Shown here: piece by piece, positions 3,640 through 38,747 of the stretch
How the letters are laid out: each line of letters begins with the position of its first letter
Numbering within the stretch: position 1 is the stretch's first letter
Assembly (NCBI GenBank): GCA_945885345.1
Contig: CAMCYP010000003.1
Span: 1-64,000, forward strand
Length of the DNA stretch: 64,000 bases
Source of the DNA: Bordetella parapertussis
Lineage (GTDB): Bacteria > Pseudomonadota > Gammaproteobacteria > Burkholderiales > SG8-41
Direction: 5' to 3'
The notes under the pieces: model-generated
The model's database searches: none
What the model was told of the DNA's origin: nothing
Seen by the model: the letters and a program-made list of their open reading frames with translations, nothing else
Translations under genes and position numbers: made by a program

Positions 3640-3933
3640 GTGCTCTCGATAAAGCCACTGCCCGGTTTCACCGCATGGCTGGATACCCTGCCCGATGCGG
3701 CGGTACGTGGCGTGGTAGTCGCGCGCATCCGGCGCTTGTCGCTCGGCTTGACGGGCGATGTTGCACCGGTGGGCAAGGGTGTATCGGAACTGCGGATTCA
3801 TCTTGGCTCCGGTTGGCGCATTTATTTTGCGCAGCGCGGTCAACAGGTCATCGTGCTGCTGGCTGGTGGCTCCAAGCGCACCCAGAAAACCGACATCAAA
3901 CGCGCCGTCTTGCTGGCATCGCAACTGGATTAA
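3640..3933 (+). CDS. Type II TA system RelE/ParE-family toxin (HigB-like addiction module killer)
   Basis: FTAWLDTLPDAAVRGVVVARIRRLSLG...VGKGVSELRIHLGSGWRIYFAQRGQQVIVLLAGGSKRTQ. Confidence 0.9.
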   Translation: MLSIKPLPGFTAWLDTLPDAAVRGVVVARIRRLSLGLTGDVAPVGKGVSELRIHLGSGWRIYFAQRGQQVIVLLAGGSKRTQKTDIKRAVLLASQLD

Positions 3934-33298: not shown

Positions 33299-33940
33299 TT
33301 ACCAGCGCAGCAGTCGTGGCCCGATCACCGCACCCAGTGCCGCCGGGATCAGCATACCGAGCAGGTACCAGATGCCGATGAACGGCGCCGCCAGTTCCGG
33401 ACAGTGCAGCGCATAAAGGGTTGCGCCCGTCGCGCCCGCCAGCAAACCGGCTGCCGCGCCCGCCAGCACGGGACGCACCGGCGCCAGCGATTTCATGACC
33501 CACAGCAGCACCACGAACGCCGGCATCGACAGCAGCGTGATATTGAACGGGCAAGACGCCCAGGTTTCGCCCCAGATCAGCATGCCGCGGTCTTCCGGCG
33601 CGGCGCGCAGCAGGGCAATGATTGCCAGCAACCAGATCGCCAGCACCGGCGCAGCCACCACTGACCCGGCACGACCGATGGCCACGCCGGGACGCGACAG
33701 GCGCATCGCGGCCAGCAACGCCGCCGCGGCCAGCGTCAGCGGAAACAGCAGCTTCACCCAGAACATCGGCAGGCGCACGGCATCGGCGATGTCCGGCCGC
33801 ACACCAAGCAGCGTCGCCATCAGCAGCGCGGCACCGAGCAGGCCGGCGCCCAGCGCCAGCGCATAACGCTGCCGCCAGACCTGAGGCGCAACAGCGCCCG
33901 CGTCGCTCGCCAGCATCGTGATCAGCTCATCCGTTTTCAT
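33299..33940 (-). CDS. NrsF/DUF1109-like membrane anti-sigma protein
   Basis: [17 protein letters not shown]...; six-TM-like; overlaps the sigma factor gene. Confidence 0.88.
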
Positions 33941-34481
33941 CCGTACTCCTTATCAGCAGCGCCAGTGCCTTCAGTCCGCGATGCACGCCGACCTTGACCG
34001 CCGCTTCCGACATGCCGGTGGCACGCGCGGCCTCGGCCACAGACAGTCCTTCCAGCTTCATGTGCACGATCGGCAGGCGTTGCCGGTCGGGCAGTTGTTC
34101 CAGCAGCTTGCCGAGGTCACGCCGGGCATCGACTGCGTCATGATCGGAAATCGCAAACACCGCCAGTTCATCATCCAGCGGATCGTTCAGCATCTCGCGC
34201 CCCGCGCGCCGCCGCATCAGATCCACCAGCTTGTAGCGTGCAATGGCATGGATCCACGCCGTCAGCGGCTGGGCGGAATCGTAGGTATGGCGCTGGTTGT
34301 GCACGGCGAGCAGAGTCTCCTGTACCAAATCTTCCACATCATCCGGCAGCCGGGCGAGACGCCCGCGCAGGAATCCCCGCAGGTGCGCACTCAGCTCCCG
34401 CAGAAACCCGTGGTAGGCCGCGGCATCGCCGGCCATGCCGCGGATCAGCAGGTCCCTGAGTCGTGTTTCGCTGGCGCTCAC
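33927..34481 (-). CDS. ECF RNA polymerase sigma factor (SigF-like)
   Basis: [43 protein letters not shown]...[38 protein letters not shown]. Confidence 0.94.
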
Positions 34482-34496
34482 GCGGCCTTGTCTTTC

Positions 34497-34524
34497 TATT
34501 CGTTGGAAACGTGGATTTGGTTAC
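34497..34524 (-). promoter_or_regulatory. Predicted SigF-type ECF promoter for sigma/NrsF operon
   Basis: Minus strand GTAACC-AAATCCACGTTTCCAA(16)-CGAATA. Confidence 0.7.
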
Positions 34525-34568
34525 AGACAGACACACAAAGATTTACCGGACGCATTTTGCCCGACCCT

Positions 34569-34596
34569 GTAACCAATCGCCAAGCAATGACGAACT
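34569..34596 (+). promoter_or_regulatory. Predicted SigF-type ECF promoter for bufferin operon
   Basis: GTAACC-AATCGCCAAGCAATGA(16)-CGAACT, about 60 nt upstream of ATG 34658. Confidence 0.72.
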
Positions 34597-34657
34597 ACAC
34601 TGCAGACCGCGCAAATGCACGGTTGCCTACCCAAACATCATCAAAGGAGCTTTGCAC

Positions 34658-34936
34658 ATGAACTCGAAATCCATCGCCATCACCGCCGTCACCCTCGCAG
34701 CCCTCATTTCCGGCGCCGCCATGGCCCAGAACAAGGATGCGGCCATGAAAGGCGACAAGGAAAAATGCTACGGCGTGTCGATGGCCGGCAAAAACGACTG
34801 CGCCGCGGGTCCGGGCACCACCTGCGCCGGCACCTCCAAAACCGACTATGACGCCAAAGCCTGGAAATTTGTTGCAAAAGGCAGCTGCACCGGCATCAAG
34901 ACCCCCAAGGGCGCCGGCTCACTGAAAGCGATGTAA
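34658..34936 (+). CDS. DUF2282 bufferin-type RiPP precursor (BufA1-like)
   Basis: Signal peptide + [57 protein letters not shown]; four Cys. Confidence 0.9.
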
Positions 34937-34966: not shown

Positions 34967-35812
34967 ATGACCATGACCAACTCCCTCACCGCCGGACTCG
35001 GGCTCAAACCGCAGCATTACGATGCGGCGCTGGCCTGCAGTACGGCGGGGTTGTGGTTTGAGGTGCACCCGGAGAATTACATGGTGGCCGGCGGCCCGCG
35101 ACTGGCATGGCTGGAAGCAATTCGCGGCAAACATCCCATTTCACTGCATGGAGTGGCGCTGTCACTGGCCGCTGATGCTGAACCCGATGCAGCCCATCTT
35201 GAAAGACTGACCGAACTCGCGCGGCGTGTTGAGCCCGCTCTCATTTCCGAACACCTTGCCTGGTCCACCTGGCGTGGCGCCTACCACCCCGACTTGCTGC
35301 CCTTCCCGCGCACGTCGGATGCACTCACACGCATTGCCGACAATGTTTCGCGCACCCAGGATGCCCTGCAGCGACGCATTGCCGTGGAAAACCCCTCGCA
35401 TTACCTGAAACTCGACGGCCACGAATGGAGCGAAACCGAATTCCTGCGCGAACTCGCACGCCGCACCGGCTGCGGACTGTTGCTCGACGTCAATAATGTC
35501 TATGTCAGCGCGCGCAACATGGGCTATTCCGCGGAAGACTACATCGACGCTTTCCCCGGCAAACCGGTGATGGAAATCCATCTCGCCGGTCATACACCGG
35601 ATCCGAAGCTGGGCCATGGCTTGCTGGTGGATTCGCACGACGCGCCTGTCGCACCGGCGGTGTGGGCGCTGTACGAACGCCTGATCCGGCGCATCGGCGC
35701 ACGGCCGACGCTGATTGAGCGCGACGACAATTTGCCCGCATTCGATGTGTTGCTGGCCGAGCGCGACCAGGCTGACCGCGTGCTGCGCAACCCGCTGGCG
35801 GAGGCTGCGTAA
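34967..35812 (+). CDS. DUF692 multinuclear iron-dependent oxidase (BufB-like)
   Basis: GLGLKPQHYDAAL...WFEVHPENYMVAGGPRLAWLEAI...HGVALSL...LLDVNNVYVSARN...EIHLAGH. Confidence 0.93.
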   Translation: MTMTNSLTAGLGLKPQHYDAALACSTAGLWFEVHPENYMVAGGPRLAWLEAIRGKHPISLHGVALSLAADAEPDAAHLERLTELARRVEPALISEHLAWSTWRGAYHPDLLPFPRTSDALTRIADNVSRTQDALQRRIAVENPSHYLKLDGHEWSETEFLRELARRTGCGLLLDVNNVYVSARNMGYSAEDYIDAFPGKPVMEIHLAGHTPDPKLGHGLLVDSHDAPVAPAVWALYERLIRRIGARPTLIERDDNLPAFDVLLAERDQADRVLRNPLAEAA

Positions 35813-36585
35813 TGATTGCACCCGGCGCTCTCACCCGTTTTCAGGATGATTTTGTGCGCGCGTTATTGGCGACTGACGATGTCCCCTCGACCGCGTTGGC
35901 AACGCTGACAGCGCAACCGGCGTTTGCGATTTACCGCAATACCGTACTCAAAGGCTGCATCGACGCATTGCAGGCCAATTATCCCGCCATCAACCGCCTG
36001 GTCGGCGAAGAATGGTTGCGCGCCGCGGCAGCCATGTACGCGCGCGATGCGCTGCCGGGACAACCGATGCTGCTGCACTATGGCGCGGACTTTGCTGAGT
36101 TCCTCGCCCGATTCGAACCCGCCGCGGAATTGCCGTATCTGCCCGGCGTCGCACGCCTCGACCGCTTCTGGACCGAAGCCCATGCTGCGGCATCTGAGGA
36201 AACACTGGCTCCCGCGGCCATCACACCACTCGCTGCGGATCATTTATTCAAGGCACGGCTGCAAGTGCATGCTGCAACGCGCTGGGCATGGTTTGCCGAC
36301 GCGCCGGTCTACACCATCTGGTCACGCAACCGCAGTGACACCGCTGTTGACGGCGACATCGACTGGCAGTCTGAAGGCGCCCTGCTGACACGGCCCCGGG
36401 ACGGCGTGCAATGGCAGGCCCTCGACAAAGCCGGCTGCGCATTCCTCGATAGCTGCGCGACAGGCGGCACGGTTGCCGATGCCGCACAGGCTGCGCTCGA
36501 AGCGCAGGCCGATGCCGATCTCGGTCAACTGATGGCCAGGCTGCTCGAAGCCGGTGCGTTCAGCCGGCTTGATCTGAATACTTAA
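35812..36585 (+). CDS. DUF2063 / HvfC-BufC family protein
   Basis: [10 protein letters not shown]...[40 protein letters not shown]. Confidence 0.92.
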
Positions 36586-36604: not shown

Positions 36605-37078
36605 ATGAATCCCGCAACCGCCATGACCGACACGCCCGCCACCGGCATCATCGGCCGCTGGAACCGCAGCGCCGAAAAATTGCAGGAATACATCAGCCAC
36701 AATCTCATTGCGTTGGCCGCGCGCATTGCTGTCGCAGCGATTTTCTTTTTGTCGGCGCGCACCAAAGTCGAGGGCCTGCTGAGCATCAAGGACACGACCT
36801 TCCTGCTGTTCGAAGAGGAATACAAGCTGCCGCTGCTGCCGCCGGAATTCGCCGCGCACATGGCGACTTATGCCGAGCACCTGTTTCCGATCCTGCTGGT
36901 GCTGGGCTTGTGCACGCGACTGTCGGCACTGGCGCTGCTCGGCATGACCGCGACCATCCAGATTTTTGTGTATCCCGATGCCTGGCCGACGCATCTGACC
37001 TGGGCCGTGCCGATGCTGTACCTGATCGGCCGCGGCGGCGGCGACTGGACCGTCGACCACCGTCTGGGTATCAAATAA
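36605..37078 (+). CDS. DoxX-family membrane protein
   Basis: [18 protein letters not shown]...[46 protein letters not shown]. Confidence 0.9.
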
Positions 37079-38189: not shown

Positions 38190-38747
38190 ATGGAACGACG
38201 CGGATTTTTACAGGGACTGACACTGGCAGCGTTCGGCGCATCGCTGTTCAGGACAGTGCAGGCTGCCCAGGTCAGCTCAATGAATGACATTGAGGCACTG
38301 CAGAAAAACTGGCGCACGCTGCTGGCAGCGAATTTCAAGGCGCCTGCCGCCACCGAACCACTGAAGCTTTCCAATGACGAATGGCGCAAGCGTCTCGACG
38401 CTGCGCAATTCAACGTGCTGCGCGAAGAAGGTACCGAACGTCCCGGCACCAGCCCGCTGAACGGCGAAAAACGTCCGGGCGTGTTTGCCTGCGCCGGCTG
38501 CGACCTGCCGCTGTTCACCTCCGGGATGAAATATGAGTCCGGCACCGGCTGGCCGAGTTTTTTCACCACCATTCCCGGCGCGTTCGCCACCAAAAAAGAT
38601 TTCGGGCTGTTTCTGCCGCGCACCGAGTACCACTGCGCGCGCTGCGGTGGGCACCACGGCCATGTGTTCGATGACGGCCCGGCGCCGACGCGGCAGCGCT
38701 GGTGCAACAACGGTGTGGCGCTGAAGTTCATTCCAAAACAAGCCTGA
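38190..38747 (+). CDS. msrB: Peptide-methionine (R)-S-oxide reductase, probably Tat-exported
   Basis: Tat-like MERRGFLQG; FACAGCDLPLF...SGTGWPSFF...RCGGHHGHVFDDGPAPTRQRWCNNGVALKF. Confidence 0.94.
   Translation: MERRGFLQGLTLAAFGASLFRTVQAAQVSSMNDIEALQKNWRTLLAANFKAPAATEPLKLSNDEWRKRLDAAQFNVLREEGTERPGTSPLNGEKRPGVFACAGCDLPLFTSGMKYESGTGWPSFFTTIPGAFATKKDFGLFLPRTEYHCARCGGHHGHVFDDGPAPTRQRWCNNGVALKFIPKQA

Follow-up and report, generated by a model that had tools for sequence, protein, structure and literature searches.

In the stretch of DNA analysed here (64,000 nucleotides; 'the window'), the gap between a sigma factor gene and the bufferin precursor gene bufA carries two divergent motifs that are, with high probability, back-to-back promoters of the ECF16-type sigma factor whose gene spans 33927-34481, driving the bufferin operon on one side and the sigma factor's own gene on the other. 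We base this reading on the motifs themselves, the genes that flank them, their conservation among relatives and their geometry. For a betaproteobacterial copper-buffering peptide system, it provides a pair of promoters defined precisely enough to be tested.

The earlier note had placed a sigma/NrsF operon opposite a bufferin operon, and these gene identities were confirmed by Pfam and NCBIfam matches. On the minus strand, the sigma factor gene (33927-34481) encodes a protein of the SigF/ECF16 kind: it scores over the cut-offs of the Sigma70_r2 and r4_2 profiles and reaches 301 bits with the NCBIfam subfamily model NF009188 (cut-off 250). The gene starts with GTG, is preceded by AAGG at 34489-34486 (minus strand) and overlaps by 14 bases with nrsF (33299-33940, minus strand), which codes for a membrane anti-sigma factor (PF06532; Pfam NrsF, E=4e-70, full profile) and is matched by PF06532 only once in the assembly. 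Among the features of an ECF16 system, both an ECF sigma factor carrying regions 2 and 4 and a neighbouring NrsF/DUF1109 anti-sigma factor are present. NrsF reaches 165.8 with the NCBIfam NrsF equivalog model, below its cut-off of 300, and we therefore assign it at the family level rather than as the Caulobacter equivalog. Two cysteines important in Caulobacter NrsF (C131 and C181; PMC3511200) and in Bradyrhizobium OsrA (PMC3420878) have counterparts in this protein, C130 and C180: in our alignment C130 is invariant, and C180 is present in nine of the ten aligned relatives. The exact start codon of the sigma factor gene is uncertain, since in many relatives the codon aligned with the start at 34481 is not a start codon; the same problem was met with B. 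japonicum EcfF, which was re-assigned to a later start (PMC3420878).

On the plus strand, bufA (34658-34936; ribosome-binding site AAAGGAG at 34643-34649) encodes a Buf1-type (DUF2282) bufferin precursor (Pfam DUF2282, E=2.5e-23) in which we read a signal sequence and four cysteines, and it is the only DUF2282 match in the assembly. It is followed on the same strand by bufB (34967-35812), an MNIO bufferin maturase (NF050167 MNIO_BufB equivalog, 363.6 bits, cut-off 310), by bufC (35812-36585), a DUF2063 partner protein (Pfam, E=3.1e-20), and by the operon's last gene, which encodes a DoxX-family membrane protein (36605-37078; Pfam DoxX, E=1.2e-16). The MNIO maturase and its DUF2063 partner stand in bufABC order, as in a Buf1 cluster.

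The sigma-bufA intergenic region is 176 bases long and holds the two motifs back to back, with 44 bases between the -35 boxes. GTAACC and CGAA had been described earlier on both strands with identical 16-base spacing, and the match is exact at 34524-34499 (minus) and 34569-34594 (plus). The candidate sigma-side promoter (34499-34524, minus strand) has its -35 box at 34524-34519 and its -10 box at 34502-34499, with T before and TAG after; the candidate bufferin-side promoter, GTAACC-N16-CGAACTA (34569-34597, plus strand), has its -35 box at 34569-34574, its -10 box at 34591-34594 and the extension CTA at 34595-34597. The Caulobacter SigF-type consensus that the earlier note invoked agrees with the published one, GTAACC-N16-CGAA (PMC3511200), as well as with the ECF16 target promoter tGTAACc-N16-CGAA (PMC3420878), of which the gap contains two exact sites. 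These are the only two GTAACC/CGAA matches in the 64 kb window when spacers of 15-17 are allowed; with the same spacers, a mean of 0.15 is expected in the shuffled window. No Rfam family matched the region.

To assess conservation, we gathered sigma loci from relatives, from plasmids and chromids, and from contigs of named genomes, which yielded a set of 97 that differ in upstream sequence, most of them betaproteobacterial; the loci were picked by similarity of the sigma factor, belong mostly to one class and are phylogenetically non-independent. GTAAC-N16-CGAA is present on the sigma side in 88 of the 97, on the target side in 77, on both sides in 69 and on neither in only one. As the search pattern fixed GTAAC and CGAA and left free the spacer, the preceding T, the sixth base C and the flanks, the perfect conservation of these letters is partly by construction. 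The free spacer is nearly invariant: over the 330 bp that precede sigma, counting full GTAACC boxes with spacers of 10-22, it is 16 in 159 of 164 and takes all other values in five. This corresponds to a rate of roughly 5.0 per kb; elsewhere in these loci the rate is 0.026 per kb, an enrichment of approximately 195-fold. The sigma-side motif is almost always a full match and lies 17 nt from the sigma start in 57 of the 88 loci, a near-fixed distance that predicts a sigma leader of about ten bases. What follows CGAA differs between the sides: on the target side it is C or T and then TA, these two bases being kept at 95% and 91%, while near relatives most often show TA(A/G) on the sigma side. 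Both rules hold in the window (target CTA, sigma TAG).

Conservation extends upstream of the -35 boxes. On the sigma side, an A/T-rich, UP-element-like tract (TCTTTGT, 34535-34541, minus strand) lies 11-17 bases upstream of the -35 box, and its positions are 76-89% A/T across the 88 loci, with flanks mostly at 25-50%. Upstream of the bufferin-side -35 box, a similarly UP-element-like tract, ATTTT (34554-34558, plus strand), runs into TTTTGCCCGA; across 75 loci, target-side positions -15 to -11 are 61-96% A/T. On both sides the A/T-rich stretch falls 11-17 bases before the -35 box and reaches up to 96% A/T in surroundings of roughly 40%. In most target-side promoters the tract is conserved as TTnTGCMY, about 7-14 bases upstream of the -35 box; in the window it reads TTTTGCCC (34555-34562, plus strand). 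Judged by position, the A/T tracts would suit contact by the polymerase alpha subunit, as expected of an UP element.

The genes divergent from sigma in related loci are not restricted to Buf1: they also encode MsrB (SelR domain), cytochrome b561, DUF1223, MXKDX-repeat proteins, EGKCG/HvfA-type peptides and an FPSA-repeat protein. The last of these, a short secreted protein matched by no Pfam or NCBIfam model, is encoded upstream of sigma with its own ECF16 motif in loci L011, L012, L014, L025 and L027, and L023 encodes a similar protein; in four of these (L011, L012, L025 and L027, all of the same genus as the window) the gene lies between sigma and bufA, with a third full promoter before bufA. 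No match to the protein was found in the present assembly. In locus L097 (1094-5203), a DoxX gene, a Buf2-type precursor and an MNIO-DUF2063 fusion stand beside a divergent ECF16 sigma/NrsF pair; the Buf2 precursor scores 99.7 bits with NCBIfam BufA2 (cut-off 60) and has its own ECF16 motif directly upstream. A published survey places sigma/NrsF in Buf1 clusters only. On a conjugative plasmid of Stenotrophomonas (L057, 3486-5183), a DUF2282 bufferin gene stands alone opposite a divergent sigma/NrsF pair, and both motifs are present; no MNIO gene is annotated in the 8.5 kb covered, and the mercury-resistance regulator gene merR is approximately 3 kb away.

We lean, by a modest degree, towards the view that the betaproteobacterial ECF16 divergon is a standard asymmetric two-promoter module with an exchangeable output gene. 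Its output promoter would combine CGAA(C/T)TA with the distinct upstream tract TTnTGCMY, its feedback promoter would most often read CGAATA(A/G) and lie close to the sigma start, and its outputs would comprise Buf1, Buf2, EGKCG peptides, MsrB, cytochrome b561, DUF1223, MXKDX proteins and the FPSA-repeat protein. The comparison itself shows a single sigma module joined to outputs of several kinds, serving periplasmic repair or metal binding. The module view bears on Cupriavidus metallidurans, also a betaproteobacterium, whose RpoQ-RsqA/gigPABT genes form the same divergon: on the CH34 chromid (NC_007974.2; L054:3641-3732) a perfect divergent TGTAACC-N16-CGAA pair lies between rpoQ and gigP, with the motifs at 3670 (minus) and 3703 (plus). 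The reports that described this divergon call control by RpoQ 'not demonstrated' and know of no gig promoter (PMC10304878, PMC11022561); transcription of rpoQ-rsqA has been assigned to RpoD, and deletion of rpoQ caused no drop in gig expression; other sigma factors are reported to compensate for its loss. If the module view is true, RpoQ directly drives gigPABT.

Using homologues as the guide to how the promoters are recognised, where transcription starts, which stress acts as the signal, what chemistry the peptide has and whether the sigma factor activates itself, we propose the following sequence of events in the window. NrsF would keep the ECF16 sigma factor at the membrane until periplasmic metal or oxidant stress, probably sensed via the two conserved NrsF cysteines, leads to its release. 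RNA polymerase with this sigma factor bound would then begin plus-strand transcription near 34601, about 7 bases past CGAA, giving a bufA-bufB-bufC-doxX transcript with a leader of approximately 57 bases, and its product would be a copper-sequestering bufferin, predicted to be thiooxazole-modified as in Buf1 clusters; minus-strand transcription would start near 34492 and yield more sigma factor and NrsF. As the gap holds two back-to-back copies of the class promoter, the sigma factor very probably activates both sides. Control of the bufferin operon is the strongest prediction of our analysis: direct control of bufferin synthesis, which the earlier note had predicted, is strongly supported by homology, and the divergent pair is retained in many relatives. 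The autoregulation predicted alongside it has support from the motif and from two homologues, RpoE7 of S. meliloti and EcfF of B. japonicum, while its degree is less certain given Caulobacter and C. metallidurans. Overall, what the earlier note observed and how it read the motifs both hold up.

Could the motif pair have arisen by chance? Single GTAACC-N16-CGAA matches do occur within genes elsewhere: the assembly (3.59 Mb, 69 contigs) contains five exact copies, and the three outside the gap are all inside long ORFs. From these three background matches per 3.59 Mb, however, simple arithmetic puts the chance of two motifs in one 176-base gap in the order of 1e-8, and since the pair is conserved in relatives we regard this reading, to which we give virtually no credence, as already refuted. 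A different objection is that another regulator, for instance a copper-responsive one binding TTnTGCMY, holds the main control, with the ECF sigma factor in a subordinate role. The position-specific element that most loci have 7-12 bases ahead of the -35 box on the target side would fit such a regulator, as would the persistence of gig induction in the C. metallidurans rpoQ mutant. Yet TTnTGCMY is also found at MsrB, cytochrome b561 and DUF1223 targets and not at bufferins alone, and in FPSA-linked loci where bufA has its own promoter, that place is taken by plain A/T tracts, which fits alpha-subunit contact better than a specific regulator. We consider dominant control by another regulator very improbable.

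Unlikely, though less so than the preceding alternative, is a reading in which only the bufferin-side motif matters: sigma-nrsF would be transcribed mainly from a housekeeping promoter, with the ECF16 box contributing little feedback. Caulobacter sigF was described as 'not strongly auto-regulated' (PMC3511200), Brucella bcrS retains basal expression without BcrS, and both the attribution of C. metallidurans rpoQ-rsqA to RpoD and the consistent difference in the bases after CGAA between sigma-side and target-side promoters point the same way. Against this, the sigma-side box is the one retained more often and nearly always in full, no sigma-70-like promoter was found in the sigma-bufA gap, copper induces Caulobacter sigF itself (PMC8224329), and overexpression of RpoE7 raises ecfR7 (PMC6180224). 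We thus retain promoters on both sides as the preferred reading and, because of the Caulobacter and Cupriavidus reports, are less sure of strong self-activation, the weaker of our two predictions.

The genome scan for GTAACC-N16-CGAA that had been suggested for defining the regulon revealed no convincing target beyond the divergon. With the flanking T of the published consensus included, T-GTAACC-N16-CGAA occurs in the assembly only as the gap pair. A wider scan of the assembly with TGTAAC-N15..18-CGAA gave 17 matches where its reversed control gave 20, and allowing two mismatches in the extended consensus gave 13 where the control gave 14; as these scans are no richer than their controls, no further target can be claimed. 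Judging by these matches, the regulon may be limited to the single sigma/bufferin divergon. Near the bufferin operon, the window also encodes a secreted MsrB-type methionine sulfoxide reductase (38190-38747), a type that in relatives is an ECF16 target and can be the direct divergent partner of the sigma factor; an ECF16 motif was sought upstream of this gene and not found.

Among known systems, the closest parallel is SigF-NrsF of Caulobacter crescentus/vibrioides with the bufferin 1 operon CC3254-CC3257, which has the same genes and the same promoter. The consensus was derived there from mapped starts, including one at -61 of CC3254, and bufferin operons are down in the sigF mutant (PMC3511200); sigF, nrsF and the two bufferin operons are copper-inducible, and the sigF mutant is copper-sensitive (PMC8224329). 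The 61-base Caulobacter bufferin leader is similar to the one predicted here. Caulobacter SigF has further targets, another bufferin operon and a gene of the yedY/msrP type, whereas here there is one DUF2282 gene and no further full consensus site was found in the assembly. The Sinorhizobium meliloti RpoE7-EcfR7/SMb20530-SMb20527 locus has the same layout, sigma/anti-sigma divergent from DUF692/DUF2063, and differs in that GTAACA replaces GTAACC and one spacer is 15; overexpression of RpoE7 increased expression of its own operon and of the divergent bufferin-type operon, both of which carry the motif (PMC6180224). EcfF-OsrA of B. japonicum and BcrS-AbcS of Brucella melitensis (ECF16) share the sigma/anti-sigma family and the promoter type: for EcfF, an autoregulated promoter of the ECF16 type has been mapped, and the cysteines of OsrA matter (PMC3420878), while the Brucella targets include genes for a Met-rich MXKDX protein and for methionine sulfoxide reductases, the available part of the source describing no bufferin target. 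On every feature tested, the system in the window belongs with the ECF16 SigF-NrsF/bufferin systems, as a further instance and not a novel kind: the arrangement is already known in Caulobacter and Sinorhizobium, and we present here a clear and widely conserved example of it.
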